A stretch of 45,941 nucleotides of DNA from Ruminiclostridium sp. (GTDB lineage Bacteria; Bacillota; Clostridia; Oscillospirales; Ruminococcaceae): NCBI GenBank assembly GCA_017941355.1, contig JAGAWN010000157.1, positions 1-45,941 on the forward strand. The letters are read 5' to 3'. Shown here one piece after another: positions 7,814 to 44,260 of this stretch. A program made the position numbers and the translations under genes. The notes below the pieces were generated by a model. That model was given only the letters and a program-made list of their open reading frames with translations. It did not search any database and was not told the DNA's origin. Numbering within the stretch: the stretch's first letter is position 1; each line of letters opens with the position of its first letter.

Positions 7814-7842
7814 TTGAAACTGCACAGCAATTGTGATATAAT
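7814..7842 (+). promoter_or_regulatory. Sigma-A promoter of paralogue 4
   Basis: TTGAAA (7814-7819), 17 bp, TATAAT (7837-7842) just after paralogue 3. The gene at 7863 thus has its own promoter; its ribosome site is the GGGGGG run at 7851-7856. Confidence 0.8.
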
Positions 7843-7862
7843 GAAAAAAAGGGGGGCTGAAA

Positions 7863-9650: not shown

Positions 9651-9654
9651 CAAA

Positions 9655-9697
9655 AACTCCCTCATGCGAGCGGATCCGTCTGCATGAGGGAGTTTTT
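9655..9697 (+). terminator. Intrinsic terminator after paralogue 4
   Basis: CTCCCTCATGC pairs with GCATGAGGGAG around a short loop and is followed by TTTTTT. Confidence 0.92.
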
Positions 9698-9719
9698 TGT
9701 GCATTTTTTCCGGAAACCC

Positions 9720-9748
9720 TTGAAAACCATGTAAAAGTATGTTATAAT
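9720..9748 (+). promoter_or_regulatory. Sigma-A promoter of the GNAT-smpB operon
   Basis: TTGAAA (9720-9725), 17 bp, TATAAT (9743-9748), 30 bp before the GNAT start codon. A start at ATG 9757 would lie almost at the transcript 5' end with no ribosome site, which supports ATG 9778. Confidence 0.85.
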
Positions 9749-9777
9749 ATTTACAGATGTATAAAGGATGTGATACC

Positions 9778-10221
9778 ATGATAAAAATAAGAGAAGCACA
9801 GGTTACCGATCTTGACGATATTCTGCAGCTCTATTCTCTGCTTTACGGAAAGAATGTCCTTCAGAAAGATGCCGATGTGCAGAGAATATGGAACCGTATC
9901 ATAACCGATCAGTTCTATCATGTGATAGTTGCGGAAGAGGACGGAAAGCTTGTATCCACCTGCGTTTGTGTCATTATACAGAATATACCGTTCGATCACA
10001 AACCGTATGCTATCGTTGACAACATAGTGACCCACGGAGAATACCGTGCGCAGGGGCTTGCTACCGCGTGTCTCCAGGAGGCGCAGCGTATAGCTGAAGA
10101 AAACGAGTGCTACAAGATAATGCTTACAACGCAGTCAAAGCTGGATTCCACACACCGATTCTACGAAAAACTCGGCTATAGCAAGGAAGATTCGACAGCA
10201 TTCACAAAATGGCTGTTCTGA
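9778..10221 (+). CDS. GNAT-family N-acetyltransferase
   Basis: 147 residues. The acetyl-CoA-binding region is clear: DNIVTHGEYRAQGLATACLQEA (motif A, R/Q-x-x-G-x-A-type loop), then a C-terminal H-R/FYEKLGY motif (STHRFYEKLGYSKED). The family transfers an acetyl group to amines of small molecules or proteins; the substrate cannot be inferred. The start at 9778 is preferred because AAAGGA lies 9 bases upstream. First gene of a tight set with smpB (10-bp gap). Confidence 0.85.
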   Translation: MIKIREAQVTDLDDILQLYSLLYGKNVLQKDADVQRIWNRIITDQFYHVIVAEEDGKLVSTCVCVIIQNIPFDHKPYAIVDNIVTHGEYRAQGLATACLQEAQRIAEENECYKIMLTTQSKLDSTHRFYEKLGYSKEDSTAFTKWLF

Positions 10222-10231
10222 GGGATAAACA

Positions 10232-10693
10232 ATGGCTGAAAATCTGAAAACAATATCCGATAACCGGCAGGTGCGGCATGAATACTTCATTCTTGAAAGC
10301 ATAGAAGCCGGTATCGAGCTTACAGGCACCGAGATAAAGTCCATTAGGCAGGGCGGGGTTAATCTGCGTGATTCATGGATAGAGATATCCGACGGACAGG
10401 CATGGGTGAAGCAGATGCACATATCCCCTTACGAAAAGGGCAATATCTTCAACAAAGACCCCCTGCGGGAGCGCAGACTGCTTATGCACAAGCGGGAGAT
10501 AATGCGGCTTTACGGTCAGGTGAAGCAAGGCGGACTTACGCTTGTTCCCGTGTCGCTGTACTTCAAGGGGAGCCGCGTAAAGGTGCAGGTCGGGCTTTGC
10601 AAGGGTAAAAAGCTGTATGACAAGCGCGCGTCAATGGCTGAGCGTGACGCAAAGCGCACCATAGACCGCGCGATAAAGGAGCGCAACAGGTGA
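10232..10693 (+). CDS. smpB: SsrA-binding protein SmpB
   Basis: 153 residues, the normal SmpB length. Conserved blocks are seen: RHEYFILESIEAGIELTGTE, SIRQGGVNLRDSW, and KGKKLYDKRA with a basic C-terminal tail (ERDAKRTIDRAIKERNR). SmpB binds tmRNA and delivers it to stalled ribosomes for trans-translation. No ssrA gene was recognised in the window. The stop overlaps the next gene's GTG start. Confidence 0.96.
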   Translation: MAENLKTISDNRQVRHEYFILESIEAGIELTGTEIKSIRQGGVNLRDSWIEISDGQAWVKQMHISPYEKGNIFNKDPLRERRLLMHKREIMRLYGQVKQGGLTLVPVSLYFKGSRVKVQVGLCKGKKLYDKRASMAERDAKRTIDRAIKERNR

Positions 10694-11349
10694 AGAGGTT
10701 CCTTGCGGTTATCGCCGCAGCCGCGCTTGCGGTGATGTGTCCGGTTTCTGCCGCAGCAGCCGAAAGTTCATATACCCTTACCCCGAATACGATCTCCGAA
10801 TGGGAGGTTCATTCCGGTACAGGCATAACGTATATGCCTGAGCAGAGGATATACTCTGTTTCAGGAAGTATGGAGCTTGAGATCGAAGTATCCGGCGGAG
10901 TATATCTGTACTGCGACATGGGCGGGTTCGGTAATTATGACAACGGCGAGGGAAGCGGTTCAAGCATCGGCTATATCTGTTACAATGAGGCAGGCGCCGT
11001 GACCGAACCGTACTGTGTTGTGCAGTCTGTTCCCTCGGACGGGCAGTTTCACCGTACGCAGATCGGAACAGCCGAAATGCTTGCGGGCATACCGGACGAT
11101 GTTTACTCCATAAGGCTTTCGATAACGGCTGACCAAAACCATTATATCAAGGCTTTATATATCTATTCAAGTGATACGGCAGCGAGGGATATGTCCGCGT
11201 TCGTCTGGAATGACGCGGGCAGCGGCGGAAACATCGAACCGAATGCAAGCCGGACTACATACCTGATAATGGCGGGCGGGGTGCTTGCCGCAGCGCTCAT
11301 CATGTTTGGCATAAGAAAATGGAAAGAACGAATAAGGAAAGGAAAATGA
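10690..11349 (+). CDS. Membrane-anchored secreted protein of unknown function
   Basis: 219 residues from a GTG that overlaps the smpB TGA (GTGA). It has a signal peptide (FLAVIAAAALAVMCPVSAAAA), an extracellular beta-rich domain of about 150 residues (VSGSMELEIEVSGGVYLYCDM), one C-terminal membrane helix (about 190-208, YLIMAGGVLAAALIMFGI) and a basic tail (KWKERIRKGK). This is type I membrane topology. The extracellular domain vaguely recalls a carbohydrate-binding beta-sandwich, but no family is recognised. The stop overlaps the copZ start. Confidence 0.75.
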   Translation: MKRFLAVIAAAALAVMCPVSAAAAESSYTLTPNTISEWEVHSGTGITYMPEQRIYSVSGSMELEIEVSGGVYLYCDMGGFGNYDNGEGSGSSIGYICYNEAGAVTEPYCVVQSVPSDGQFHRTQIGTAEMLAGIPDDVYSIRLSITADQNHYIKALYIYSSDTAARDMSAFVWNDAGSGGNIEPNASRTTYLIMAGGVLAAALIMFGIRKWKERIRKGK

Positions 11350-11783: not shown

Positions 11784-12905
11784 TTATTGTATCTCGATCC
11801 CGCCTTGCTGTAAAAGAGCGAAAGCTCCGTCCAGTTTTTCTTTTGCGTCATCGGAAAGTCTGCATTTTTCCGGAGCGCTTATATAGGCAGTTGAACCGGA
11901 ATCCGCACCCAGCAGATAATTCCCGCCTTTGAAAGTTCCGGCGGCGATATCTTCAAGTATCTTACGGTCATTCATGCCCATATTCTTTATTACCGAAGTC
12001 AGCACAACGTTCTTGCTTCCGGCGACACCGTCACGGCTCCTGTCGGTATCGGAACCTATGAGCCAGTCGTCCTGCTTGCTTTCTTTAACCGCGTCCAGAA
12101 CGCCCTTGCCCGAGGCTCCGGCTGCGGCAAACAGTACGTCGCAGTCCTGAGCTATAAGAGTTTCCGCGATCTTCTTTGCGGTGTCCATATCGCTGAACGA
12201 GCCGACATAGTTTCCGCCGATATCTGCGCCGTTTGCGTCCGTGCCGCCGAACGTTTCAAGTTCGGCAGTCTCTGCGTCGGTTCCGTATGTTTTGTTGGAG
12301 TATTCAACGCCGTACTCAAATCCGCGCTGATAGTTTATGTTTGAGGGCAGAGGCATTCCGCATATCACGGCTACCTTTCCCGTTTTTGTGGTGAGTGCAG
12401 CGGCAATGCCCGCAAGAAATCCGCTTTCCTGCTCTTTGAAAACCATTGCATAAATATTATCGGCAGATGTCTCGTTTCCGTTTTCGTCAGTCGGGAAAGA
12501 ATCAACAAGTATGAACTTCTTGTCCGGGTATTCCGCAGCAGTTTTCGTTATGCCGGAAAACTGATATCCCGCGCATATTATAACATCGTAGTCCGCGGCG
12601 ACCCTGTCCGCTTCTTCCAGTGCATACCGGGGTTCTCCGGTCTCCTCGGTTATCATCTCTACCGATGACTGCTTGTGATCGGAGATAAAATCGGAAATAC
12701 CGTTGTAATTGTCAAGCACGAACGAGCCGTCATCTATACCCGTTACCGAGCTTAAAAGCGCTATTTTCAGTCCGGGTTCTGCCGGTTCCTGTGCGGCAGT
12801 CTGCTGTGAAGCAGCGTGCGCGGGATTCTCGCCGCAGCCGGACAGCATACCAGCGGTCAGGATTGCCGCAGCGGCGGTAATAGCGATTTTTTCTTTTATA
12901 CGCAT
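11784..12905 (-). CDS. BMP-family (Med/PnrA-like) lipoprotein, probable nucleoside-binding protein
   Basis: 373 residues with a lipoprotein signal (ILTAGMLSGCGEN; lipobox LSGC). The mature part follows the BMP fold: KIALLSSVTGIDDGSF, YDVIICAGYQFSG, KKFILVDSF, EQESGFLAGIAAALTTKTGKVAVICGMPLP...RGFEYG, DVLFAAAGASGKGVLDA and WLIGSDTDR. Family members bind purine nucleosides and feed a BmpB/C-type ABC importer, but no permease or ATPase gene is adjacent here, so it is an orphan binding protein. Transcribed from the promoter at 12987-13015. Confidence 0.88.
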   Translation of the reverse strand: MRIKEKIAITAAAAILTAGMLSGCGENPAHAASQQTAAQEPAEPGLKIALLSSVTGIDDGSFVLDNYNGISDFISDHKQSSVEMITEETGEPRYALEEADRVAADYDVIICAGYQFSGITKTAAEYPDKKFILVDSFPTDENGNETSADNIYAMVFKEQESGFLAGIAAALTTKTGKVAVICGMPLPSNINYQRGFEYGVEYSNKTYGTDAETAELETFGGTDANGADIGGNYVGSFSDMDTAKKIAETLIAQDCDVLFAAAGASGKGVLDAVKESKQDDWLIGSDTDRSRDGVAGSKNVVLTSVIKNMGMNDRKILEDIAAGTFKGGNYLLGADSGSTAYISAPEKCRLSDDAKEKLDGAFALLQQGGIEIQ

Positions 12906-12986
12906 TTGTTTAAAGCCTTTCGGTGAATTGTCGTTTATTGTGTCAGTATCATTCCGGAGTGTCGGAATAATACAGGCATATAATGT

Positions 12987-13015
12987 ATTATATCATTAAT
13001 GCGTAAAAAAGTAAA
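12987..13015 (-). promoter_or_regulatory. Promoter of the BMP lipoprotein gene
   Basis: On the minus strand TTTACT (13010-13015), 17 bp, TATAAT (12987-12992), about 80 bp before the ATG. The rest of 12906-13160 shows no convincing gene. Confidence 0.65.
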
Positions 13016-13159
13016 GAGTTTTAATGAAAAATACTTCGCAAAAGATATGCTGCTTCCTTTCCGTTTCGGGTGCTGCATCAATACCGTGTTTCTTTGCAAA
13101 TCCGACTGCCTTACCGTCTCCGGCGGATTTCACACAGACAATTAGATCGGTATTTCCAT

Positions 13160-13199
13160 AAAAATGTCCGGAAGCGCTGTTCATCTGCACTTCCGGACT
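13160..13199 (-). terminator. Terminator of the truncated solute-binding protein gene
   Basis: GTCCGGAAG (13166-13174) pairs perfectly with CTTCCGGAC (13190-13198), and on the minus strand a T run follows (plus-strand A run 13160-13164). It lies 5 bp after the stop at 13204. Confidence 0.8.
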
Positions 13200-13203
13200 T
13201 GCG

Positions 13204-14412
13204 TCACTGTATGCTTTCAAGATGTTCGGCAAACTGGCTGCGTATATCGTCCAGCAGTTCGTTCAGTCCGGCGGACTCAAGTTCGGCTTTCATTTTAGGC
13301 ATTATCAAATCCGGATCGGAAGTCCCGGTGCGCAGGTCGGTGGAATAGTTTGACCATATTGCAGTCACAGTGGTCACTATATCCTCTTTTCGCGTGCGGT
13401 CATAAACGAACCCTCCCGATTTGCTGTATATTCCGTATTGCTCGTAACCTTCAAATACTTTCTCCCACTGATCCGGGTCGGACAGGAAATTTTCGCTTAC
13501 CGACTCTACAGACGCGTTTATTACAGAGCCGAAAGGGTAAAGCCTGACGTTGTACCTTTCGATACCGTCCTGTGTTCGCAGAACCGTTCCGTTTTCCAGA
13601 TATCTGTAGTGTTCGCCCTCAATGCCGTATGCAAATATATCGCGGAATTTCCGGTCTGTGTTGAGCAGCTCGATGTAGCGCAGAGCCGCTTTTGCGTGCT
13701 TCTCGTCACACCCCGCGCATATCGCCGTCATTGCGCCCTGTTCTGTATTCTTGGAAATATAGGGACCGTCATATATCGAAGTCTTTACGTTGAATCCCCA
13801 ATCGGCAGGGTTTGAATAACCGCTGTAACCTCTCCATGCGACTCCGGATCGAATCGGTGTGTCGTTCGGCACAGCGGACAGTTCCATTGCGGAGGCGTCG
13901 GGATTGATATAGCCGAGGGAATACCACTTATGCAGCAGTCTCAGCCGATCCATTATCTCCTCGTTTTCCCATATCGGTATTATCTCCGGCGATTCGCGGT
14001 TGTACGGTATCACTATCAGCGAACCTACCACGCTCTCAAGAGAATTGAAAAATCCTGCTATACCGGATTTTGACATTTCTAAGGGATATTTCGCGGGGAA
14101 GTCTTTCTTATATACTTCAAGATAAGGTTCCAAATCCTCGAATTCCATGAATTCCGGTATGGTCATTCCTTTCTCGCCCTCGTAATAGTCGGCGTTGAAA
14201 CGGAACATCATCTCCGAGCCCATGTCTTTCAGCGTCGGAACAGCGTATATCCGTCCGTTCAGCTCCGCCGCGTCCCAGTAATCTCCGACAATGCGGTAAA
14301 GATCGGGCGTTTCTGTTTCAATAATATCCGTTATATCGTAGTACAGCCCTTTCGCGGCATTGACGGCATGAACTTTAAGAAATTGCTGAAAAGCGTCATA
14401 AAGCGGTATCTG
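13204..14412 (-). pseudogene. 5'-truncated ABC solute-binding protein (extracellular, DUF3502-like C-terminus)
   Basis: The frame is open from a TAG at 14413-14415 down to the stop at 13204. Before the first in-frame ATG (14223) it already encodes family-like sequence (GLYYDITDII, ELNGRIYAVPTLKDMG), so the ATG is internal and the true 5' end is lost. The C-terminus has the pattern of clostridial lipoprotein-type sugar/peptide binding proteins (AAIRYIELLNTD-like, YPFGSVINASVESV, WEKVFEGYEQYG). No signal peptide or lipobox remains and no permease genes are present. The break abuts the end of the SRAP gene (24 bp), so a deletion joined the two. Confidence 0.75.
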
Positions 14413-14438
14413 CTATTTGTCCGGAACGAGAAGGACGC

Positions 14439-15068
14439 CTATACTTTTTCAAGCACAAGGTCAGTAACAGCCTTTTGGATTGTCTTTTCCGGATCGCCGT
14501 CCAGTGCTGTCCATTCATCGACAGCCGACTGCGGCAGTATCACGGGCATACGGTCATGTATGCCGCTTACAGCTTCGCCCGGCGGCCTTGTAAGCACGAC
14601 GAACACGGGGTATCTGAACCCGTTCATTTCCTCGAACCGGTACAGTCCGGCGAGCCATGTGATCCCGGAGCCTTTCGGCTGTATCGCGTACTTTTCGCCT
14701 GTTCTTGTCCTGCCGTCCGGAGTCTTGTAATGCTGCCACTCGTAGTACCATGAAGCGGGAATGACACATCTGCGCCGATACCATGAATCCCGGAATGTCG
14801 GCTTCTCGGCGGCAGATTCGATACGCGCGTTTACTATCGGAGTTTTCAGTCCGCTGACCGAAAATCCCCATTGCATAGGAAACACCGCCCGCCGTCCGTT
14901 TCGTGCGGGAGCAACGACTGCCGCGATATCGGTAGGGCGTATCTCGCCGGACATAGTAAGCGGGCGCGACAGGCTTATCATCATCTGCTGTGCGAATGAC
15001 GCCTGCTGCGCTTCATCAATGTATGGTTTAAGTTCTTTGTCTATATCTGCATAGAATCTGGTACACAT
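14439..15068 (-). CDS. yedK: SRAP / YedK-HMCES family DNA-protein crosslink protein
   Basis: 209 residues if begun at ATG 15068, so that the protein starts MCTRF. In this family Cys2 becomes the N-terminal nucleophile that crosslinks to abasic sites in single-stranded DNA. A frame extension upstream to 15152 would bury that Cys and is rejected. Other conserved features: NARIESAAEKPTFRDSW (Asn and Glu of the active site), RRCVIPASWYYEW (substrate Glu/Trp region) and GIHDRMPVILP (active-site His). Its role is protection of abasic sites at replication forks. Transcribed from a perfect TTGACA-17-TATAAT promoter with a leader of about 140 nt. Confidence 0.92.
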   Translation of the reverse strand: MCTRFYADIDKELKPYIDEAQQASFAQQMMISLSRPLTMSGEIRPTDIAAVVAPARNGRRAVFPMQWGFSVSGLKTPIVNARIESAAEKPTFRDSWYRRRCVIPASWYYEWQHYKTPDGRTRTGEKYAIQPKGSGITWLAGLYRFEEMNGFRYPVFVVLTRPPGEAVSGIHDRMPVILPQSAVDEWTALDGDPEKTIQKAVTDLVLEKV

Positions 15069-15216
15069 TTTCCTGATAAGCTCCTTTGCTTTATGAGAGA
15101 TTTTGTTCCTGTAAATAGGCACAGCACCGGGATACTTATACATATCCCGCAAAATGATAATGCCGTATTTTATGTCAGCCTTAAATTAGTATTTTCTGAA
15201 AGTGGATCGTATATCC

Positions 15217-15245
15217 ATTATATCTCATTGAGAGCAAAATGTCAA
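15217..15245 (-). promoter_or_regulatory. Consensus sigma-A promoter of the SRAP gene
   Basis: Minus strand TTGACA (15240-15245), 17 bp, TATAAT (15217-15222): full consensus. No LexA-type box (GAAC-N4-GTTC) was seen next to it. Confidence 0.9.
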
Positions 15246-15319
15246 TAGTAAATATCCGGAACGGAATATTTTGTTCACCGCCGCTGCAGATCAGGGGCGA
15301 TTTGTGAATTATTCCGAGA

Positions 15320-15348
15320 TTGCATTTAGGACGGGATCGTGGTATAAT
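15320..15348 (+). promoter_or_regulatory. Sigma-A promoter of the patatin gene
   Basis: TTGCAT (15320-15325), 17 bp, TATAAT (15343-15348). The leader then runs through the small element at 15370-15420 before the start codon. Confidence 0.8.
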
Positions 15349-15369
15349 AACATTGGTCTATTATATAAA

Positions 15370-15420
15370 GGGAACCTCTAAAAAACCGTTTGATATAAAA
15401 AGCGGTTTTTAGATGTACTC
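15370..15420 (+). mobile_element. 51-bp MITE-like element in the patatin leader
   Basis: Left end GGGAACCTCTAAAAA and right end TTTTTAGATGTACTC match as inverted repeats at 12 of 15 positions, with an inner stem AACCG/CGGTT. The left end resembles the IS end at 2607-2621 and the relic at 27104. Being in the leader, it forms an RNA hairpin ending about 20 nt before the start codon. Confidence 0.55.
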
Positions 15421-15439
15421 TGAAGAGAGGGTATCTGTT

Positions 15440-16345
15440 ATGAGTAAATCGGTCTATAAGGACTTGGACAAGCTGCCGTCCGGCAGGGCGGGAGATAAAA
15501 CATCGGAGGGCTGTCTTGTGCTTGAGGGCGGCGGGTGGAAAGGATTGTACACAGTCGGTGTTCTCGACTGCATGATGCTGAACGACATAAATATATCGTC
15601 GGTAGTCGGAGTTTCCGCCGGAGCGCTCTCCGCGATAGGGTATGTATCCGGTCAGATAGGCTGGGCGGCGCGGATAGATCTCACTTACAGGCACGACAGC
15701 AATTACTGCGGTCTCGGCGCAATGCGGCGTGACGGCGGCATTACCGGATTTACATATCTGTTCAATGATATTCTGGAAGCACTCCCGCTTGACAGGCAGC
15801 GCCTTATGGATCCCGCGCGGAAAATGACTGTAACAGCTACAGATATGACTACCGGGCAGATAACATATTTTGAAAAGGGAAAGTGCGATCTGTTCCGTGC
15901 AATACAAGCCTCCGCGACAGTACCTTATGTATCGCGCCCGGTGATGATAGACGGCGTACCGTATCTTGACGGGGGCTGCGCGGAAAAGATACCGTATTCG
16001 TGGGCGGAGATCTCGGGTGAGAAGAAAGTAGCAGTCGTGAGGACGCGCGAACTGAGTTACCGCAGGAAACCGGGCGCTCCGAAGCTTGCGAAGCTGTGGT
16101 ACGGCAAATATCCCAGGTTTATGGAAAGCCTTGAGACTGCAAACGAAAAGTTCAACAAGACTGCGGATATGCTCGAACAAAAGGCGCGGGAGGGTTCGAT
16201 ATTCCTGATAGCGCCGTCCGAACCCGTTGTTGTGACGAGGTTTGACGGAAATATGGACAGGCTCGGAGATCTTTATTGGCTCGGATACCATGATATGGAG
16301 AAAAAAGTCAACGATCTTAAAAGATATCTGAATTTGACAGCTTAA
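15440..16345 (+). CDS. Patatin-like phospholipase (RssA-type)
   Basis: 301 residues from ATG 15440, which has GAGAGGG upstream; the in-frame ATG at 15413 falls inside the inverted-repeat element. The catalytic features of bacterial patatins are present: oxyanion loop LEGGGWKGLYTVGVLD, nucleophile elbow GVSAGAL (Ser), and DGG (VPYLDGGCAEKIPYSWA) supplying the Asp of the Ser-Asp dyad. Predicted to be a cytoplasmic or membrane-associated lipid acyl hydrolase. Monocistronic with its own promoter and terminator. Confidence 0.92.
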   Translation: MSKSVYKDLDKLPSGRAGDKTSEGCLVLEGGGWKGLYTVGVLDCMMLNDINISSVVGVSAGALSAIGYVSGQIGWAARIDLTYRHDSNYCGLGAMRRDGGITGFTYLFNDILEALPLDRQRLMDPARKMTVTATDMTTGQITYFEKGKCDLFRAIQASATVPYVSRPVMIDGVPYLDGGCAEKIPYSWAEISGEKKVAVVRTRELSYRRKPGAPKLAKLWYGKYPRFMESLETANEKFNKTADMLEQKAREGSIFLIAPSEPVVVTRFDGNMDRLGDLYWLGYHDMEKKVNDLKRYLNLTA

Positions 16346-16371
16346 CTCCCAAACTGTATGAAGTAAGGAAA

Positions 16372-16419
16372 AAAGCCCGCTTACACAGCTTAATGCTGTA
16401 TAAACGGGCTTTCGTTTTT
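16372..16419. terminator. Bidirectional intrinsic terminator
   Basis: AAAGCCCG (16372-16379) pairs with CGGGCTTT (16405-16412), with an inner ACAGC/GCTGT stem and T runs on both sides. It ends the patatin gene (+) and the membrane-protein gene (-). Confidence 0.9.
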
Positions 16420-16442
16420 CAATTTTACCATACTGCCTCAGT

Positions 16443-16940
16443 TTAAAACAGCGAGCATATCCACGCCGCAAGTGCGGAAGCCGCCGGGAAAATGACCAGC
16501 AGTTTCAGAAGCTGGCTTTTTATGTTGTATCCGTACTTCCGGTTCTCATATACCGGCGTGACCTCCGGGGTAAAATACTGGAAGAAACGAAATCTGCACA
16601 GCAGAAAATAATCGAAGAATGTCATATCATAGATCTTGTATATCGTAAATATCAGGACGAATCTCAGGAAAAACTGCAGGAAGCCGAATCCGCTCCTGAA
16701 CCCGTCCCAGATCGAGACAACACCGACTCCGATTATCATCAGAATACTCATGATCATCAGAGTCCAGCCGATCTTCCGCGCTCCGAAGAATTCTTCCTGC
16801 TCTCTTTCTTTCACAAGCTCGAATGCCTCCTTGGGAGCGGAAGAAAACAGCTTCTTCTCCTTGATGAACACCACCGCCGCCAGCAGCATAAGAGTAATCG
16901 CGACGCAAAAAACGATCGCCAAAAAAACAGTCAGAAGCAT
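16443..16940 (-). CDS. Small integral membrane protein of unknown function
   Basis: 165 residues. Hydrophobic helices at about 3-25 (LLTVFLAIVFCVAITLMLLAAVVF), 60-78, 88-100 and 143-163, with a charged loop (KEAFELVKEREQEEFFG) after the first. No family is recognised. It starts 15 bp after the methyltransferase remnant, with GAGAGG upstream, so it was probably co-transcribed with that gene from the operator-controlled promoter at 17187-17215. Confidence 0.75.
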   Translation of the reverse strand: MLLTVFLAIVFCVAITLMLLAAVVFIKEKKLFSSAPKEAFELVKEREQEEFFGARKIGWTLMIMSILMIIGVGVVSIWDGFRSGFGFLQFFLRFVLIFTIYKIYDMTFFDYFLLCRFRFFQYFTPEVTPVYENRKYGYNIKSQLLKLLVIFPAASALAAWICSLF

Positions 16941-36452: not shown

Positions 36453-36481
36453 ATTATAACACATTAATTGGCTGATGTCAA
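36453..36481 (-). promoter_or_regulatory. Consensus sigma-A promoter of the HD-GYP/kinase operon
   Basis: Minus strand TTGACA (36476-36481), 17 bp, TATAAT (36453-36458). The rest of 36482-36613 is AT-rich with no gene seen. Confidence 0.9.
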
Positions 36482-36613: not shown

Positions 36614-36642
36614 TTGACAAAGCAGTGGATAAATGATATAAT
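36614..36642 (+). promoter_or_regulatory. Consensus sigma-A promoter of the cysM-mec-cysO operon
   Basis: TTGACA (36614-36619), 17 bp, TATAAT (36637-36642), 51 bp before the TTG start. No T-box or S-box motif was seen in the short leader. Confidence 0.92.
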
Positions 36643-36693
36643 ATATACATATTAATCAGATATGAATTATCGGATAAAGAAGGTGATCCCCTC

Positions 36694-37599
36694 TTGGATA
36701 TCTTCGGCGCAGTCGGGAATACTCCCCTGTTCGAGCTGAAAAGCTTCGGCGACGAAAAGCGTGGCATACATATATTAGCCAAGGGCGAGTTCCTGAATAT
36801 AAGCGGCTCGGTCAAGGACAGAGCGGCAAAAGCGATGATACTTGACGGTATAGAGCGCGGACTTCTCACAAAGGATAAGATACTCATTGACTCCACAAGC
36901 GGCAATACCGGTATAGCTTATGCCGCGATTGCAGCCGCACTCGGAATACGCGTAAAGCTATATATGCCGGGAAATGTCACTTTGGAAAGACAAAGGTATA
37001 TGAAAGCTCTCGGCGCAGATGTGATCCTCACAGATATAATGGAGGGTATAGACGGGGCGTACAGCGCCGTACTTCGTGAGGTCGGAAATGATCCCGACAA
37101 ATATTTCTTCCCCGATCAGTACACGAACGAGGCAAACTGGAAAGCCCACTACAACGGCACCGCAAACGAGATAATAACCCAGACCGAGGGCAGGATAACA
37201 CACTTCGCTGCGGGAACGGGCACCTCGGGAACATTCATGGGCTGCACAAAACGACTGAAAGAATATAACCCGGATATACGGTGTTTCAATATGACGCCGG
37301 ACTCGCCGTTTCACGGGATCGAGGGTGTCAAGCACTGTACCTGCCTTACCCGGAACGGCTTCTTCGATGAGAGCATCTCTGACGGCAGGATCGAAGTGAC
37401 CACGGAGACGGCTTACGGGACAGCAAGGCTGCTTGCGCTGCGGGAAGGTCTGTTCACGGGGATAAGTTCGGGCGCCAATGTGGCTGCGGCACAGAAGCTC
37501 GCCGAGACCGCACCCGACGGCTCAGTGATAGTCACGATACTGTGCGACAGCGGTTGCCGCTATATGTCCGGACGGCTGTGGGGTGACACAAATGCTTGA
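36694..37599 (+). CDS. cysM: Cysteine synthase, CysM type (PLP-dependent)
   Basis: 301 residues from TTG 36694, preceded by AAGGTGA. A beta-family PLP fold with Lys41 in SGSVKDRAA (Schiff base), STSGNTG (68-73) for substrate carboxylate and GTGTSGTFMG for PLP phosphate. Near the C-terminal part it has HGIEGVKH, closer to the GLEGLRY of actinobacterial CysM than to the CysK motif. In the CysO pathway CysM joins activated serine to CysO thiocarboxylate, giving a CysO-cysteine adduct. The neighbours are Mec and CysO homologues, which supports that role over a sulfide-using synthase. Overlaps the mec gene by 8 bases. Confidence 0.85.
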   Translation: MDIFGAVGNTPLFELKSFGDEKRGIHILAKGEFLNISGSVKDRAAKAMILDGIERGLLTKDKILIDSTSGNTGIAYAAIAAALGIRVKLYMPGNVTLERQRYMKALGADVILTDIMEGIDGAYSAVLREVGNDPDKYFFPDQYTNEANWKAHYNGTANEIITQTEGRITHFAAGTGTSGTFMGCTKRLKEYNPDIRCFNMTPDSPFHGIEGVKHCTCLTRNGFFDESISDGRIEVTTETAYGTARLLALREGLFTGISSGANVAAAQKLAETAPDGSVIVTILCDSGCRYMSGRLWGDTNA

Positions 37600-38023
37600 G
37601 ATATCGGAAAAGCTGCTCGGCGAGATACGGCTCGAATCAGAGAAGGCATACCCCAACGAATGCTGCGGGTTCATTTTCGGAAAGATGAACGGTACGGACA
37701 AATCGGCGGTCTCTGTACTGCCTAACGAGAACAAGTCAGAGCAAAGCGAGCAGTACCACCGCTTCGTAATAACGGCGGATGACATGATGAGTGCGGAGCT
37801 TTACGCCCGCCGCAAAAAGCTGGATATCGTAGGCATATACCATTCTCACCCCGACTGTCCCGCTATACCTTCGGAGTATGACCGCTCCCACGCCCTCGCG
37901 GTGTACAGCTATATAATAGTTTCGTGCAGGAACGGGAAAGCCGCGGAGCATACGAACCACATACTCGACCCCAAAACAAACTATACAAAATTCATTGCAG
38001 AGGAGATAAAAACATGGCAGTAA
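37592..38023 (+). CDS. mec: JAMM/MPN+ metalloprotease, Mec-like (CysO-cysteine peptidase)
   Basis: 143 residues from ATG 37592; GTG 37583 is an alternative. The zinc JAMM motif is complete: Glu23 (PNECCGF), then HSHPDCPAIPSEYD giving His84, His86, Ser94 and Asp97. In Mycobacterium the homologue Mec hydrolyses CysO-cysteine to release cysteine. In other sulfur-carrier clusters JAMM proteases trim C-terminal extensions to expose the diglycine; here the CysO domain has its diglycine internal, so the protease may do both jobs. The ATG of the next gene overlaps its stop by 10 bases. Confidence 0.87.
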   Translation: MLEISEKLLGEIRLESEKAYPNECCGFIFGKMNGTDKSAVSVLPNENKSEQSEQYHRFVITADDMMSAELYARRKKLDIVGIYHSHPDCPAIPSEYDRSHALAVYSYIIVSCRNGKAAEHTNHILDPKTNYTKFIAEEIKTWQ

Positions 38024-39471
38024 CGGTACTTATCCCGACAACGCTCCGTATGTTCACAGGGCATCAGTCGGAACTGAAGCTTGACGGCGCGACCATAGGT
38101 GAAGTCATAAAGTCGCTCTCGGACGAATATCCGGAGACAAAAAAGGTGCTTTTCGGCGAGGACGGAAAGCTCCGCGATTTCGTGAACGTATTTGTGGGCG
38201 AGAACAATATCCGTGATCTGAACGGCTATGACACGCCCGTGAAGGACGGCGACGAGGTGATGCTGATACCGGCGATTGCCGGCGGTTCACCGATAGAAAG
38301 CGTCCTCGGAGAGAGACTTGGCGACAAGCTGACCAACAATGAGATAAAGCGATATTCCCGTCACCTGCTCTTAAAGGAGATAGGCGTTAAGGGGCAGCGC
38401 CGTCTGAAAGGCGCAAAGGTGCTGATAGTCGGAATGGGCGGACTCGGGACTCCACTTGCGCAGTATCTTGCCGCAGCGGGAGTCGGAACGCTCGGTCTTA
38501 TCGACTTCGATGAGGTTGAAGAATCCAACCTTCAAAGACAGGTAATACACGGCTCCCGCGATATCGGAAGACCAAAGGTTGCAAGTGCGAAGGACAGCAT
38601 AAAACAGATAAACCCGCTCGTGAAGGTAGAAACCTACAACGAACGTCTTACCAAAGACAATGCCCTTGACCTTATCGGGCAGTACGATATCGTCGCGGAC
38701 GCATCGGACAACTACCAGACCCGCTATCTCGTCAATGACGCGTGCGTACTTCTCGGAAAGCCGGACGTTTTCGGCGCTATGTACCAGTTCGAGGGGCAGG
38801 CGGCAGTTTACTATGCGAAAGAAGGCCCCTGCTACCGCTGTATGTATCCTGCTCCGCCGCCTGCCGGACTTGTTCCGTCCTGCGCAATGGGCGGCGTTGT
38901 GGGCGTTCTCCCCGGCATCATTGGCACTGTTCAGGCTAACGAGGTGATAAAGCTCATTGTCGGAGGCGGTGAGCCGCTTGTCGGCAGGCTTGTGCTGTTC
39001 GACGCATGGAAAATGAAATGGAGACAGCTCAACATCTGCAAGGATCCGAAATGTCCGATTTGCGGCGAGAAACCGACTATCACCGATCTCGAAGAATATG
39101 ACTATGAAGATTTCTGCGGCATAAAAGCAAAGGAAGAAGAGGAAGCAGAAGTCGAAGGAATAGAGCCGAAGGAGCTGAAACGCAGGCTCGATGCGGGCGA
39201 GAAGATCACGATAATAGATGTGCGGGAGCCGCATGAACGCGCTATCGCCAAATTCCCCAACGCGATCATCATTCCGATCGGTCAGCTTGACCGCAGACAG
39301 GACGAGCTTGACCCCGACACCGACACCGTGTTCGTCTGCAAGGAAGGAAAGCGCAGCATACTCGCCGTGCGCACCCTTCTCGAAGCGGGATACAAGGGCG
39401 CGGCGTACAACCTCAAAGGCGGTACGAATGCATGGTCGCGTGACGTGGACAGCAGTTTCCCGCAGTATTGA
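38014..39471 (+). CDS. CysO-MoeB/MoeZ-rhodanese fusion (ubiquitin-like sulfur carrier plus its activating enzyme)
   Basis: 485 residues from ATG 38014 (AGAGGAG upstream). Residues 1-91 are a MoaD/ThiS-type ubiquitin fold closely resembling mycobacterial CysO (VTVLIPTTLR, LRDFVNVFVGENNIR, GDEVMLIPAIAGG), with Gly90-Gly91 followed directly by SPIESV. Residues about 105-345 form the adenylyltransferase (ATP loop GMGGLG at 140-145, adenylation region NLQRQVIH, catalytic-type Cys in VPSCAMGG, zinc CYRC and CPIC). Residues about 385-485 form a rhodanese domain (IDVREPHE, active-site loop CKEGKRS). In known systems MoeZ adenylates and thiocarboxylates separate carriers; covalent fusion with an internal diglycine is unusual. 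Confidence 0.88.
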   Translation: MAVTVLIPTTLRMFTGHQSELKLDGATIGEVIKSLSDEYPETKKVLFGEDGKLRDFVNVFVGENNIRDLNGYDTPVKDGDEVMLIPAIAGGSPIESVLGERLGDKLTNNEIKRYSRHLLLKEIGVKGQRRLKGAKVLIVGMGGLGTPLAQYLAAAGVGTLGLIDFDEVEESNLQRQVIHGSRDIGRPKVASAKDSIKQINPLVKVETYNERLTKDNALDLIGQYDIVADASDNYQTRYLVNDACVLLGKPDVFGAMYQFEGQAAVYYAKEGPCYRCMYPAPPPAGLVPSCAMGGVVGVLPGIIGTVQANEVIKLIVGGGEPLVGRLVLFDAWKMKWRQLNICKDPKCPICGEKPTITDLEEYDYEDFCGIKAKEEEEAEVEGIEPKELKRRLDAGEKITIIDVREPHERAIAKFPNAIIIPIGQLDRRQDELDPDTDTVFVCKEGKRSILAVRTLLEAGYKGAAYNLKGGTNAWSRDVDSSFPQY

Positions 39472-39490
39472 AAAAAATACAGAAAAACTA

Positions 39491-39519
39491 TTGCATTTTC
39501 TAAATAATTATGATATAAT
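39491..39519 (+). promoter_or_regulatory. Sigma-A promoter of the encapsulin-desulfurase operon
   Basis: TTGCAT (39491-39496), 17 bp, TATAAT (39514-39519), 17 bp after the fusion gene. The compartment genes can thus be expressed independently of cysM-mec-cysO. Confidence 0.85.
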
Positions 39520-39527
39520 ACGTTCAT

Positions 39528-39557
39528 AACATATTATTTCTATATATTTAATATGTT
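39528..39557. promoter_or_regulatory. Palindrome AACATATTA-N12-TAATATGTT at the encapsulin transcription start
   Basis: A perfect 9-bp inverted repeat just downstream of the -10 box. It may be a repressor site or a 5' mRNA hairpin protecting an abundant shell-protein message. The AGGAGG site follows at 39576-39581. Confidence 0.55.
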
Positions 39558-39588
39558 AATAATCAAAATCATCACAGGAGGCAATAAA

Positions 39589-40545
39589 ATGGCAACCAAA
39601 GACGAAGAAAAAATCATAGCGCTTGGCAAAGACGCGGCGTATAACCTCGCCGACGTCAACAAAACAAAACCGCAGTACGCTGCACTCACTCCCCGCTGGA
39701 TAACAAAGCTCCTTGAATTCAAGGGTCTCGATTCCGGTATCTACCGCGTGAATAAGGTCCAGGAGGGCGATACTCCCCTCGATGTTCTTTGCAGCTCGGA
39801 GAAGAAGTCCAACATTATCCCCCAGGGCTATGTTGAATACGAGGCAAAGCCCCGCGAGTACAGACTTGCGAATATCTCTACGATAATCAATGTACATACC
39901 GCAGTCGAGGACGTTTACAGTTCCCCCTTCGACCAGGCAAGAGAACAGCTTGAACTTGCCATAGAGAGTCTTCGTGAGCGTCAGGAGAGCCAGCTCATCA
40001 ACAACGATGATTACGGTCTTCTCAAGAATATCGCCGACAAGCAGCGCATCCAGCCTGTATCTGCAAGCGGAGCGCCTACTCCCGATGACCTCGATGAGCT
40101 TATCTCGAAGGTGTGGAAGGATCCCTCGTTCTTCCTCGCTCACCCGCGTGCAATTGCAGCATTCGAGCGTGAATGCACCAAGCGCGGTGTTCCGCCCGTA
40201 ACCGCGAACATCGCAGGCGGCACATTCATCCTCTGGCGCGGCATACCGATAATCCCGACAAACAAGCTCCTTGTTGACGGTCTCAAGGAACCCAAGAGCA
40301 AGGGCGGAAAGACCAATATCCTTCTTGTCCGCACAGGTGAAGCAAAGCGCGGCGTTATCGGACTGTATCAGCGTAACCTCAAGAACGAACAGTCCCGCGG
40401 TCTCGCTGTTCGTTTCAGAGGTATCGACGACAAGGGTACCGCTTCATATCTCCTTTCGCTCTACTGCTCGGCTGCAATTCTCGCAGATGACGCAATTGCA
40501 GTTCTGGAGGACGTAGAGGTAGGTGAATACTATGATTACGACTAA
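39589..40545 (+). CDS. Family 2A encapsulin shell protein (SrpI-like)
   Basis: 318 residues from ATG 39589, seven bases after AGGAGG. It follows the family 2A pattern: DAAYNLADVNKTKPQYAALTPRW, LDSGIYRVNKVQEGD, VEYEAKPREYRLANISTI, and the HK97-like E-loop/P-domain region with SKVWKDPSFFLAHPRAIAAFERECTKRGVPP and GTFILWRGIPIIPTNKL. No cyclic-nucleotide domain is inserted, which separates 2A from 2B. Family 2A shells form 60-subunit cages of about 25 nm that package a cysteine desulfurase and are linked to sulfur metabolism. The cargo gene starts inside its 3' end. Confidence 0.93.
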   Translation: MATKDEEKIIALGKDAAYNLADVNKTKPQYAALTPRWITKLLEFKGLDSGIYRVNKVQEGDTPLDVLCSSEKKSNIIPQGYVEYEAKPREYRLANISTIINVHTAVEDVYSSPFDQAREQLELAIESLRERQESQLINNDDYGLLKNIADKQRIQPVSASGAPTPDDLDELISKVWKDPSFFLAHPRAIAAFERECTKRGVPPVTANIAGGTFILWRGIPIIPTNKLLVDGLKEPKSKGGKTNILLVRTGEAKRGVIGLYQRNLKNEQSRGLAVRFRGIDDKGTASYLLSLYCSAAILADDAIAVLEDVEVGEYYDYD

Positions 40546-42145
40546 TTCGTTCACAGGGCTGCCCTCGGAGGGAGAGCTTGAAGCACTGGCGAACTCGCTC
40601 TTCCCGGATCTTGACCCGGTGCGCTGTGCGGAAGGTACAGCGAGGCTCACGGAGACAGGTGACACTTCGGTGATATACGAGGCGGCACAGAAAGCAGAAA
40701 ACTATGCGGGAAGCTACAGCGAATACGCACAGCTTGCGGAAAGCTTCGGAGGAGGGTATTACTCGGAGTACGAGAAGCTTGCCAATGTGCTTTCAGACGG
40801 CTTCGGAAGCTATGAAGCGGCTCCCGCTCAGACAGGATACTCTCCGGCAGTGCTGTCGGAAACACAGGCTGCGAGCTACACTCCCAAGACCGTGCAGCAG
40901 GCGGCTCCCGTTTCGGCAAGCGGCAATGTCGTTGTCGGTACTAAGACGCTGGAGCAGATACGCGCTGATTTTCCGATACTGAAAGAGATCGTCAACGGTC
41001 ACCCGCTTGTATGGCTTGACAACGGCGCCACTACACAGCGCCCACAGGCTGTCATAGACAGGCTTTCATACTACTATACCCACGAGAACTCCAATGTTCA
41101 CCGCGGCGTTCACGAGCTCGCGTCACGCTCTACCGATGCTTATGAAAACGCAAGACAGATAACCGCTGACTTCATCGGCGCACCTTCAAAGGACAACATC
41201 GTGTTCGTGCGTGGTACCACCGAGGGCATAAACCTTGTGGCGAACGCTTATGTTAAACCGCTTTTACAGCCCGGCGACGAGATCATTCTTTCAATTCTTG
41301 AACATCACGCGAACATCGTTCCGTGGCAGCTTGTCTGTGAAGAAACAGGTGCAGTGCTGAAAGTGATACCCTGTGACGAAAGCGGACAGCTGATACTCTC
41401 CGAATATGAGAAGCTGTTCACAAAACGCACAAAGTTCGTGAGTGTGACGCAGGTCTCTAATGTACTCGGCACGGTGACTCCCGTGGAAGAAATCATAGCA
41501 ATGGCTCATGCCCACGGTGTACGCATACTTATCGACGGTGCACAGTCCGTCGCCCATATACCGGTGAATGTCGCAGCACTCGACGCGGATTTCTTCGTGT
41601 TCTCCGGTCACAAGATATTTGCCCCCACGGGTATCGGCGCAGTTTACGGGAAGTCTGAGCTTCTTGAGGCTGCAAGACCGTATCACGGCGGCGGCAACAT
41701 GATAAAGGACGTGACCTTTGAGCGCACGATATACAATCCCGCTCCCAACAAGTTCGAAGCAGGCACAGGCAGTATCGCCGACGCGGTGGGTCTCGGCGCA
41801 GCGCTCGAATACCTGAACGCGATAGGAATGCCCTCGGTAAACAAACATGAGCATGAGCTTCTCGTGTATGCAATGAGCGAGATGAGAAGAATACCGGGGC
41901 TGCACCTTATAGGTACTGCGTCCAACAAGGCGAGCGTACTCTCCTTCATCCTCGACGGATACAGCAACGAGACTGTCGGTGCAAAACTCAACGAACTCGG
42001 TATCGCAGTGCGCACAGGTCATCACTGCGCACAGCCGGTACTCCGGCGCTTCGGTCTCGAAGGAACTGTCCGCCCGACTCTCGCACTCTACAACTCGTTT
42101 GAAGATATCGACGCTCTCATAAAGGGCATAAGGACGCTTGCGTGA
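40532..42145 (+). CDS. Encapsulated cysteine desulfurase (SufS-type) with N-terminal cargo-loading domain
   Basis: 537 residues from ATG 40532 (AGGTG upstream; GTG 40523 is an alternative), overlapping the shell gene by 14 bases. Residues 1-135 are low-complexity: GLPSEGELEALANSLFPDL, two YSEYxxLA units (62-69 and 77-84), then a Pro/Ala/Ser/Gln linker. This is the disordered targeting domain typical of family 2A cargo. The enzyme domain (about 136-537) has EHHANIVPWQ, IDGAQSVAH, SGHKIFAPTGIG with PLP Lys361, and RTGHHCAQPVL with catalytic Cys499. It converts cysteine to alanine, leaving persulfide/sulfane sulfur, probably inside the shell. Confidence 0.93.
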   Translation: MITTNSFTGLPSEGELEALANSLFPDLDPVRCAEGTARLTETGDTSVIYEAAQKAENYAGSYSEYAQLAESFGGGYYSEYEKLANVLSDGFGSYEAAPAQTGYSPAVLSETQAASYTPKTVQQAAPVSASGNVVVGTKTLEQIRADFPILKEIVNGHPLVWLDNGATTQRPQAVIDRLSYYYTHENSNVHRGVHELASRSTDAYENARQITADFIGAPSKDNIVFVRGTTEGINLVANAYVKPLLQPGDEIILSILEHHANIVPWQLVCEETGAVLKVIPCDESGQLILSEYEKLFTKRTKFVSVTQVSNVLGTVTPVEEIIAMAHAHGVRILIDGAQSVAHIPVNVAALDADFFVFSGHKIFAPTGIGAVYGKSELLEAARPYHGGGNMIKDVTFERTIYNPAPNKFEAGTGSIADAVGLGAALEYLNAIGMPSVNKHEHELLVYAMSEMRRIPGLHLIGTASNKASVLSFILDGYSNETVGAKLNELGIAVRTGHHCAQPVLRRFGLEGTVRPTLALYNSFEDIDALIKGIRTLA

Positions 42146-42160
42146 TCGTTGCATAAAGGC

Positions 42161-42204
42161 AATACCCCGTCGTCAGGATCAGTCCTGGCAACGGGGTATT
42201 TTGG
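42161..42204. terminator. Terminator of the encapsulin operon
   Basis: AATACCCCGT (42161-42170) pairs with ACGGGGTATT (42191-42200), with inner CAGGA/TCCTG; TTTT-like tail. Confidence 0.88.
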
Positions 42205-42433: not shown

Positions 42434-42508
42434 TTTAAAACCTCCTAAGTAGTGCTGCTTCTATTATACACTACTTTGGAGGTTTACACAAGATTTGGAA
42501 TAGACTCA
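42434..42508 (-). mobile_element. IS256 end and promoter region
   Basis: Contains an inverted repeat AAGTAGTG (42447-42454)/CACTACTT (42469-42476) and the IS-end-like GTTTACACAAGATTTGGAAT up to about 42507. It forms one retained end of the element whose transposase fragment lies at 42254-42433. Confidence 0.55.
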
Positions 42509-43005
42509 AAACCGCTGTACTTGCTTTGGTACAGCGGGTTTCTTGTGGAGAGATATGTGATTTTTAAGCGGATTTTTAATAAAGATGTTTTCATATTGTT
42601 GATATGGCGGAACGAATGAAGTCCATAGAACGGGAGCTCGTTCTTCTCACAAAACTCTTTCAGCCAGCCATAGGGAGTCTGATTGTTCATTTCAGCTCCG
42701 TTCCACTTGGTGAACAGCCGGTCGGTCTCAATCCACTTGTCACCCAGCCGGAGAGCTTCCTCATCCTGCTCCGCTTTATACTCCTTGATCATATTCATTA
42801 TTGGCTGCGCTATCTTAAGTGTCCGCTGTGAGCGCTTTGTCTTGGTCGTATCTGTGTATATACCGCGCTCTGCTGTGTAGTTCGATGTCCGCTTAATGCT
42901 TATGATGTTATGCTCGAAGTCGATATCCTTCCATTCGAGACCCAGCATCTCGCTCCTGCGGAACCCGCTGTAAGCGATAATGTAGAAAAATACTATATCA
43001 CCATA
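42484..43005 (-). pseudogene. Tyrosine recombinase (phage-type integrase) catalytic-domain fragment
   Basis: The frame runs from TAA 43006-43008 and encodes FYIIAYSGFRRSEMLGLEWKDIDF (box I with catalytic Arg) and, after the central part, FYGLHSFRH (box II start, H-x-x-R). The N-terminal DNA-binding domain is missing. After SFRHINN the sequence is no longer integrase-like and runs into the IS256 end, so the Tyr nucleophile is lost. A hairpin AAACCGCTGTAC/GTACAGCGGGTTT at 42509-42541 lies between integrase and IS. Confidence 0.8.
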
Positions 43006-43029: not shown

Positions 43030-44199
43030 TTATTCTTTATCGAATTCACTTAAATTCAATGAGTAATACACATATTTATTTTTCACTTTTTTAAGAAGTT
43101 CCGGCTTTATCTCACCCAGCTTTGTTTTAAGTGTTGATAATGAAATGTGTAGATGTTCAATCATATCTTGATACCCTATACCCTTATCCGAGAATAATGA
43201 AGCCTGCAATAAGAGATCATACAAGTCTTTATCAGGGAATGACGATATACATTGATAGTAATCTTTATATAACTGTTGTTTCTCTGTAAGAGTTTCTAAT
43301 AATTGTTTTTCAGCTTCAAGAATAATATTCAGGAATGTTTCAACAAACGGTGATAAGTCTCCCTTACTGTTGAATTTCTCGCATATCTCAAACCCCTTGT
43401 AATATTTGTTGATATTCTCTTTAATAGTATGTGAAAGTCTATAACCTATTAAGGGATTAAGGCATTTCGACAGCATATAACAGCTTATAAAACGACTCGT
43501 TCTCCCATTGCCGTCATAGAATGGGTGAATGTATCCGAACAGAAAATGAAAAGCTGATATTCTGATGAGCATATCATATCTGTCATCATTCAAGAACATT
43601 AATGATTTGGTCATAGCAAGGTTGATAGCTGATTCAGGTTCTAACCCATTATGAATAACTGCACCGTTATCACCTTCGACTATTACGCTCTTTGCCCTGA
43701 ATAATTCTCCGTCCGGTTTATCATTTTCGTCGATCTCTTCGATAAAAATATCATCATATATTTTTCTTATATCGAGACAAGTCTTCAGCAGTATTCCCTC
43801 ACCGGAAGTAAGAGCTTTATATTTGTTTACAAGTCCGACAAAACGCTTCGATTTTTTATTGTAAGGAATAGAGTCAATTATAGTACCTATTTCTTTTCGT
43901 GTGCTTCTTACTCCCTCTATATCGTTGGTTTTAACTATTTCGCCTATAAGACTTTTTACAGTATATTGCTTTACGGCTATATCAGGCAATTCTGATGTAA
44001 GTTTATTAACCTGTTTGTCTATGCGTTCTATCTCAATAATAGCTTTGTATATATCCGATGAAGGATATATAAACGCTTCGCTGCCTTTAATGAGAATATC
44101 AATATGAATAGTATCATCGTTATTAAAGCGATAGTTATATTGTTCTTCATAAGCAGATTTATCACTATGATAAAGTTTATACAATGGCAAATACGGCAT
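43030..44199 (-). CDS. Fic-domain protein (probable AMP-transferase with N-terminal inhibitory motif)
   Basis: 389 residues from ATG 44199, chosen for AAGGTGA upstream; an in-frame ATG at 44223 lacks one. The Fic core HPFYDGNGRTSR matches HPFx(D/E)GNGRxxR completely. An inhibitory motif of the S/TxxxE(G/N) type lies N-terminal to it (KTNDIEGVRSTRKE), making it a class II Fic that self-inhibits. A C-terminal winged-helix-like part (GYQDMIEHLHISLSTLKTKL) is present. Fic proteins transfer AMP or similar groups to hydroxyl residues. Clearly AT-richer than neighbours and flanked by integrase and IS remains, so horizontally acquired. Confidence 0.9.
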   Translation of the reverse strand: MPYLPLYKLYHSDKSAYEEQYNYRFNNDDTIHIDILIKGSEAFIYPSSDIYKAIIEIERIDKQVNKLTSELPDIAVKQYTVKSLIGEIVKTNDIEGVRSTRKEIGTIIDSIPYNKKSKRFVGLVNKYKALTSGEGILLKTCLDIRKIYDDIFIEEIDENDKPDGELFRAKSVIVEGDNGAVIHNGLEPESAINLAMTKSLMFLNDDRYDMLIRISAFHFLFGYIHPFYDGNGRTSRFISCYMLSKCLNPLIGYRLSHTIKENINKYYKGFEICEKFNSKGDLSPFVETFLNIILEAEKQLLETLTEKQQLYKDYYQCISSFPDKDLYDLLLQASLFSDKGIGYQDMIEHLHISLSTLKTKLGEIKPELLKKVKNKYVYYSLNLSEFDKE

Positions 44200-44260
44200 T
44201 ATGTTCACCTTCTCTCGCAACATACAGTTAATAGCAAGCTGTTTTTGGCCGTTTTCTGAT

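Follow-up and report, generated by a model that had tools for sequence, protein, structure and literature searches.

A family 2A desulfurase encapsulin of Ruminiclostridium sp. linked in gene order to a CysO-type sulfur-carrier module

Results

Organization of the locus

In the 45,941-nucleotide contig JAGAWN010000157.1 of Ruminiclostridium sp. (assembly GCA_017941355.1; the whole contig is called the window below), we describe a locus where the genes of a family 2A desulfurase encapsulin system stand next to those of a CysO-type sulfur-carrier module. Five genes at 36694-42145, all on the + strand, encode a CysM-like synthase, a JAMM protease, a fusion of a CysO-like carrier with an E1 enzyme and a rhodanese, a shell protein and a cysteine desulfurase (Table 1), and an earlier note on this DNA was right about their kinds and strand. 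The CysM-like, JAMM and fusion genes overlap their neighbours by a few bases and the shell and desulfurase genes overlap by 14 bases. Between the three-gene set and the pair is a gap of 117 bases, in which an AGGAGG sequence and a promoter-like site could be read by eye. On the basis of this gap and site, the division into two abutting transcription units that the earlier note had proposed is plausible. The site is absent from the program's promoter list and its first hexamer matches at only 3/6 positions; for the region as a whole, 15 promoter-like sites were counted, where shuffled sequence gave 5.8.

Table 1. Positions of genes, codons and signals of the encapsulin locus in the window
Feature	Positions	Strand	Remarks
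Sigma-70-type promoter, TTGACA-17-TATAAT, TG before -10	36614..36642	+	12/12 consensus matches
CysM-like cysteine synthase (pyridoxal phosphate enzyme, PF00291), TTG start	36694..37599	+	PF00291 206.7 bits
JAMM/Mec-like metalloprotease	37592..38023	+	In-frame GTG at 37583 is an alternative start; Prok-JAB 83.2 bits
CysO(ThiS)-E1(ThiF/MoeB)-rhodanese fusion, 485 aa, single open reading frame (ORF)	38014..39471	+	ThiS, ThiF and rhodanese each above the Pfam cut-off
Gly90-Gly91 codons, internal; predicted cut between Gly91 and Ser92	38281..38286	+	Invariant in 77/77 fusions, also in 49 rows of the fusion alignment
Rhodanese active-site Cys442 (CKEGKR loop)	39337..39339	+	Invariant in 77/77 fusions
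Promoter-like site TTGCAT-17-TATAAT, extended -10, ahead of the shell gene	39491..39519	+	Read by eye
Family 2A encapsulin shell protein, 318 aa	39589..40545	+	NF041162 above cut-off; AGGAGG at 39576-39581
Putative cargo cysteine desulfurase (SufS-like), 537 aa	40532..42145	+	Active-site Cys codon 42026-42028; RxGHHCxQP pattern
N-terminal motif of the cargo extension, GLPSEGELEALANSLFPD	40556..40609	+	Relaxed motif in 98/118 cargo proteins
Terminator-like inverted repeat (aataccccgt ... acggggtatt) 3' of the desulfurase	42161..42200	+	Read by eye; the program found only smaller overlapping stems

Family assignment of the proteins

The shell protein belongs to the family 2A encapsulin shells, being SrpI-like and without a cNMP domain: NF041162 gave 471.5 bits against a cut-off of 380, PF19307 (308.9 bits) was the only domain found, and the PDB matches were 8t6r and 6x8m. 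The adjacent desulfurase has a 138-residue N-terminal extension followed by a SufS-like core of the aminotransferase V family (TIGR01979 above cut-off), as in the family 2A desulfurase encapsulin systems, and the cargo model NF041166 scored 788.6 bits against its cut-off of 800, about 11 bits short. In the JAMM protein, which has 2kcq as its best PDB match and passes the Prok-JAB cut-off, the motif HSHPDCPAIPSEYD could be read, so that the metal ligands (HxH...SxxD) are intact. The synthase is a PALP enzyme with cysteine synthase B (2bht) as its best PDB match, and TIGR01138, the CysM equivalog, was the best of the cysteine-synthase models tried; the label CysM needs qualifying, since this model gave 302.2 bits against a cut-off of 394.2 and the protein fell below the cut-off of each of the others as well.

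By its sequence, the carrier domain of the fusion is CysO-like, with best PDB matches to 4n6e_B (62 bits) and 3dwg_C (61 bits) and only 15 bits to E. coli MoaD. We take both PDB entries to be carriers of the CysO type, and 3dwg_C to come from a CysM:CysO complex. The E1 domain is of the MoeB/ThiF kind. The name MoeZ, used earlier for this part of the protein, fits its E1 and rhodanese domains only loosely, as the MoeZ equivalog NF005902 gave 464.1 bits against a cut-off of 647 and both CXXC pairs are present (C273, C276 and C347 in 77/77 fusions, C350 in 75/77). These two pairs are given as the mark of MoeBR (PMC3227635). In gene content the window falls into operon class 4c of PMC1779556, in which carrier, E1-rhodanese, JAB and cysteine synthase form one cluster, the fused carrier being a variation.

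Linkage among the nearest shell relatives

Of the 354 relatives that a scan with the shell brought up in the genome collection, we retained the best 80. Linkage was counted as domains found by tblastn, not as intact ORFs, and a locus was informative if it had 1650 bases upstream for the fusion (75 loci), 2300 for JAMM (73), 3000 for CysM (70) or 1500 downstream for the desulfurase (78); five of the 80 loci had too little upstream DNA and two too little downstream DNA for the nearest genes. In 75/75 informative loci the shell gene is immediately preceded, on the same strand, by carrier, E1 and rhodanese domains, and in 78/78 the desulfurase follows it. The earlier note had made its reading depend on conserved linkage in relatives, and such linkage is there. 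With shells dereplicated at 96.5 percent, the carrier and E1 are kept in 42/42 informative loci (by record title 35 Bacillota, 3 Spirochaetota, 3 Fibrobacterota and 1 Pseudomonadota). The titles among the best 80 include Ruminococcus, Ruminiclostridium, Lachnospiraceae, Selenomonas, Treponema, Fibrobacter and Succinivibrionaceae, with ruminant gut as the source for many. The gene order also occurs on a 2.34-Mb contig (L188), and thus the linkage is not just a product of mixed bins.

Fusion, shell and desulfurase are the only genes in fixed adjacency in every informative locus of the clade; the remaining sulfur genes vary in presence and order. CysM is present in the window and in 13 named loci, and CysK in others such as L027 (TIGR01139 above cut-off). 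A single family 2A shell of this kind occurs in the genome of the window (G000; 300 contigs totalling 4.52 Mb, completeness 99 percent, contamination 4 percent), whose serine acetyltransferase lies on a separate contig; the EpsC model was passed by two relatives. Among 394 genomes of the same order, the shell was found in six and the carrier-E1-rhodanese protein (E <= 1e-60) in five, once as a split gene, and all five are among the six shell genomes. Some contigs occur both among the named loci and in the genome sample. In the sixth shell genome (G242), a protein with metallo-beta-lactamase and rhodanese domains precedes the shell instead of the fusion (L004:2591-3667 (-); same place in L134).

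Other arrangements were seen along the way. The more distant loci have fusions 43-62 percent identical to that of the window and shells near 80 percent identical, the shells having been selected for likeness. L011 has a SUF-like set (an ABC ATPase, two SufBD-core proteins and a second aminotransferase-V desulfurase) directly downstream of the cargo gene at 12693-16869, and a second desulfurase match downstream occurs also in L010, L013, L014 and L016. The Aliarcobacter cibarius plasmid L198, typed as mobilizable, has at 2010-11336 a cysteine synthase, an M67 peptidase, a MoaD/ThiS protein, a rhodanese, the shell, the desulfurase and cysE, with IS110 and IS5 transposases annotated amid the carrier-side genes; this locus may be decaying.

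An internal Gly-Gly in the carrier

Carriers of this fold act through a free C-terminal Gly-Gly (PMC4326299, PMC3227635). In the fusion, a linker and the E1 domain come after Gly90-Gly91, which is hence internal, and both glycines are invariant in the 77 fusions compared (the window and 76 loci, 73 distinct by their last 300 residues), in which the linker that follows varies in length and sequence. The Gly-Gly is also kept in the nine shell-free fusions listed. A three-domain ORF was picked automatically in 76/85 loci. The nine exceptions were a split form in L003 (the same gene as L135), no fusion in L004, loci that start inside or past the gene (L017, L042), a run of N (L024), an in-frame stop (L039) and three ORFs that are open where read (L016, L029, L086). 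In the AlphaFold model of the fusion, with a mean predicted local distance difference test (pLDDT) of 83.8 and a predicted template modelling score of 0.69, the two stretches below pLDDT 50 are residues 88-93 and the E1-rhodanese linker at 372-377, which would fit exposed tails or linkers.

An internal and yet invariant Gly-Gly implies that the carrier should need cutting before a thiocarboxylate can form, and the earlier reading had overlooked this. Separate-gene carriers in two loci end in GGCL (L135) and GGI (L198), and those of the second carrier module described below, in the cases read, have residues beyond the glycines (C, Q, AV, AF and one longer tail). The fact that no carrier form read ends in a bare Gly-Gly as made points to JAMM as the maturing enzyme. 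The ligands HxH...SxxD are present in 48/48 adjacent JAMM proteins (39 by strict pattern, nine on reading). JAB as the releaser of fused carriers has already been proposed (PMC1779556), and MoaX is cut at Gly82/Ser83, a cut that is required (PMC4326299). That a cut is needed can be deduced from established carrier chemistry, and JAMM is probably the protease that makes it.

The cargo desulfurase

The RxGHHCxQP pattern is found in 112/118 cargo proteins. For the N-terminal motif, the initial strict pattern matched 33/118, and a relaxed pattern, fitted after the sequences were seen, matched 98/118 (92/112 distinct) against a shuffled mean of 1.24 and maximum of 5.

Comparison with known systems

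The shell of the SrpI/CyD system of S. elongatus belongs to this family too, with 51.2 percent identity across 92 percent of the query; the cargo there is a desulfurase with an N-terminal extension, and the cage genes are flanked by a separate rhodanese, serine acetyltransferase and CysK. The system differs from the window in its small, separate rhodanese and its CysK synthase, with no carrier, E1 or JAMM among 14 annotated features, and in that the relaxed cargo motif was not found in the first 70 residues of its cargo. Serine acetyltransferase and rhodanese have been described as the most enriched neighbours (PMC8346489). The actinobacterial CysM-CysO-Mec-MoeZ pathway has the same activities, and the carrier of the window matches 3dwg_C; here the carrier is instead fused to an E1-rhodanese with two CXXC pairs, its Gly-Gly is internal and an encapsulin is linked. 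As for operon class 4c, neither encapsulin nor desulfurase is named for it in the passages of PMC1779556 considered. MoaX, a MoaD-MoaE fusion, is likewise a carrier fused through its Gly-Gly that becomes active when cut before Ser, with another partner domain and pathway and, in PMC4326299, no protease assigned to the cut.

The earlier note had missed a second carrier module, which lies on another contig of the same genome, separate from the cage locus (G000:C133:26000-45900, L139). It consists of MetY-like, SiR-like and TusA-like genes, a thioredoxin-like ORF, a ThiS-like carrier, ThiF (ThiF2) and JAMM (JAMM2), and presumably resembles the homocysteine pathway of Wolinella. Such modules, in G000:C133 and L027 for example, match operon class 4e (carrier, JAB, E1, SirA, sulfate assimilation and O-acetylhomoserine sulfhydrylase; PMC1779556).

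In a quick shell tree of 77 rows, from which the short L192 and L193 were left out, the Fibrobacter and Treponema rows fall inside a Bacillota-rich clade, in which they form a set of eight rows starred at 95. The tree needs only two changes for Bacillota, and transfer is not proven by it. Among the named loci, record titles mark the Fibrobacterota and Pseudomonadota rows as bins; the titles of Treponema zioleckii, Selenomonas ruminantium GACV-9 and the Ruminococcus flavefaciens strains do not.

Flanking DNA and control signals

A second promoter with 12/12 consensus matches, at 36453-36481 (-), points away from the locus to an HD-domain/response-regulator gene. Just beyond the locus lie a short phage-integrase-like ORF (42484-42948 (-)) and a Fic-domain protein (43030-44223 (-)); the near relative L008 has different genes in their place, and this may be the edge of an insertion. 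Rfam at gathering scores gave zero matches in the window, and control by a riboswitch or T-box was dropped from consideration on that ground.

Discussion

The genes, their linkage and their conserved active-site residues suggest a pathway in which a family 2A desulfurase encapsulin is joined to a CysO-type carrier module, with sulfur passing from the caged desulfurase to the rhodanese, to CysO, to CysM and into cysteine; in our judgement its chances are about even. The desulfurase held in the shell would desulfurate cysteine, and the sulfane sulfur would be retained in the cage, as has been reported for other desulfurase cages, which are named as involved in sulfur storage (PMC12407261). The rhodanese of the fusion would pick up this sulfur as a persulfide on Cys442. 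JAMM would cut after the internal Gly-Gly and free CysO, the E1 domain would adenylate the new C-terminus, and the rhodanese would turn the adenylated CysO into a CysO-thiocarboxylate. With this and an activated serine, CysM would form CysO-cysteine, from which JAMM would release cysteine. The serine acetyltransferase of the genome points to O-acetylserine as the co-substrate; mycobacterial CysM uses O-phosphoserine (PMC3227635). Sulfur would thus be banked in the cage and later recovered as cysteine without free sulfide. Cargo loading, sulfur storage, the relay to the rhodanese and the part of JAMM as cutter are the inferred steps of this scheme.

Several observations weigh against this pathway. 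A flux from cysteine to cysteine is futile unless storage and withdrawal alternate in time, and the protected sulfur loop of the earlier note makes sense only with the two so separated. JAMM is adjacent in 47/73 loci; of the 26 loci without it, 15 have a JAMM elsewhere in the locus DNA and 11 show none, and those 11 also speak against JAMM as the maturing enzyme. The pattern for its glutamate motif was matched by only 38/48 adjacent JAMM proteins. A dedicated CysM is found in 13/70 loci. These counts rule out a universal CysM-JAMM-CysO set; the full set belongs to a minority, and the fusion next to shell and desulfurase is constant. The cargo motif is missing in 20/118 cargo proteins, including those of S. 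elongatus and Aliarcobacter. The 80 loci, being the nearest of 354, describe one shell clade, and the genomes of the sister shells L132 and L134 gave no fusion match at E <= 1e-40. A deeper clade, with nine genomes from the phylum of a Fibrobacter genome, does not have the fusion immediately before the shell gene: it is full-length in 5/9 (downstream in G921, about 10 kb upstream in G902, on other contigs in three), partial in G868, reduced to E1 alone in G930 and not found in G850 and G925; assembly gaps may explain the missing pieces. Finally, ten genomes without the shell have carrier-E1 fusions, with matches starting at residue 1-12 (G520, G701, G554, G696, G600, G486, G401, G575, G448, G758). 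The carrier module is therefore independent of the cage, and the fusion as a mark of cages only can be discarded. Ten neighbourhoods, eight of them from these ten genomes, hold a JAMM-like gene in 8/10, a CysK-like gene in 5/10 and a rhodanese match in 8/10. Across 398 genomes of the phylum, the shell occurs in seven, and among these the fusion only in G000 and G728. Among 20 loci from the phylum of the Fibrobacter genome, the deeper clade has CysM and JAMM 3' of the shell in L170, L173, L180 and L181, and nine loci on the Pseudomonadota side have shell and desulfurase, an acetyltransferase in 8/9 and the fusion in 0/9.

It can be argued that these genes merely travel together under sulfur limitation as a sulfur island without direct relay, the rhodanese drawing its sulfur from thiosulfate, polysulfide or another desulfurase. 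The DNA of the 80 loci, with serine acetyltransferase in 54, MetY-like genes in 46, TusA in 47 and a second ThiF in 50 (families verified on examples), is consistent with this, as are the carrier-E1 fusions beside JAMM without shells and the promoter-like site that the shell pair has to itself. However, only the adjacency of fusion, shell and desulfurase is constant, whereas the other sulfur genes come, go and reorder, and we regard this explanation as possible but rather unlikely. A real relay could also serve a product other than cysteine, such as Fe-S clusters, tRNA thiolation, thiamine or homocysteine. The dedicated CysM missing in 57/70 loci, the SUF-like set just downstream in L011 and a full-length ThiG in 5/10 genomes, this last another count against the cysteine pathway, would be in keeping with such a product. 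The carrier is CysO-like, though, CysM in the window and 13 named loci and CysK in others such as L027 are at hand, serine acetyltransferase is common nearby and MoaE was absent from 10/10 genomes, all of which leaves another product improbable. As to thiamine, the genome of the window has one partial ThiG match (positions 122-206 of 247) of 22.9 bits, or 23.9 with neighbours, at a cut-off of 23; this also weighs against the cysteine pathway, and a thiamine role in this genome is unlikely.

The remaining two alternatives concern the carrier itself. An E1, a ubiquitin-like protein and a JAMM protease resemble the conjugation sets of PMC1779556, and the JAMM-carrier pair might then tag the shell or the cargo with a modifier; given that a rhodanese accompanies the E1 in 75/75 loci with its Cys invariant in 77/77 fusions, and that cysteine-synthesis genes adjoin, we find this very hard to credit. 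The MoeB/ThiF kind of the E1 would also suit a molybdenum-cofactor carrier system that came to lie near the cage by chance. A search for MoaE gave 0/10 genomes with controls at 11/14, so that the MoaD/MoeB identity was rejected, and the linkage is conserved; next to nothing speaks for this last possibility.

Returning to the relay from cage to CysO, a fuller version can be put forward tentatively, and with some doubt. The cage would bank sulfur solely for a ubiquitin-like carrier. This carrier, fused to its own E1 and rhodanese, would be set free by JAMM when required and loaded with the sulfur in the shell, cysteine, laid down as sulfane sulfur, would be rebuilt later without free sulfide, and the set would have spread between phyla of gut bacteria.

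Shell, cargo and class 4c carrier cluster are of known kinds, and their combination appears to be new. We did not find encapsulin together with ThiF, MoaD or CysO in a library of 5.39 million open-licence papers, which takes in neither the bulk of the subscription literature nor any supplement, such as the neighbour table of PMC8049743. Broader searches had none on the combination among their top-ranked results, and the earlier note had likewise known of no description of this combination. To our knowledge, it is open how sulfur leaves the desulfurase encapsulins. For the CysO pathway, the source of the sulfur that charges the carrier is stated to be unknown (PMC3227635). The fixed adjacency of fusion, shell and desulfurase in this clade proposes that the two gaps answer each other, the caged desulfurase being a candidate source of the sulfur on CysO, and the internal Gly-Gly bears on what the JAMM protease is for. 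That related gut bacteria from several phyla share the core pairing suggests where a carrier of the CysO type may get its sulfur.

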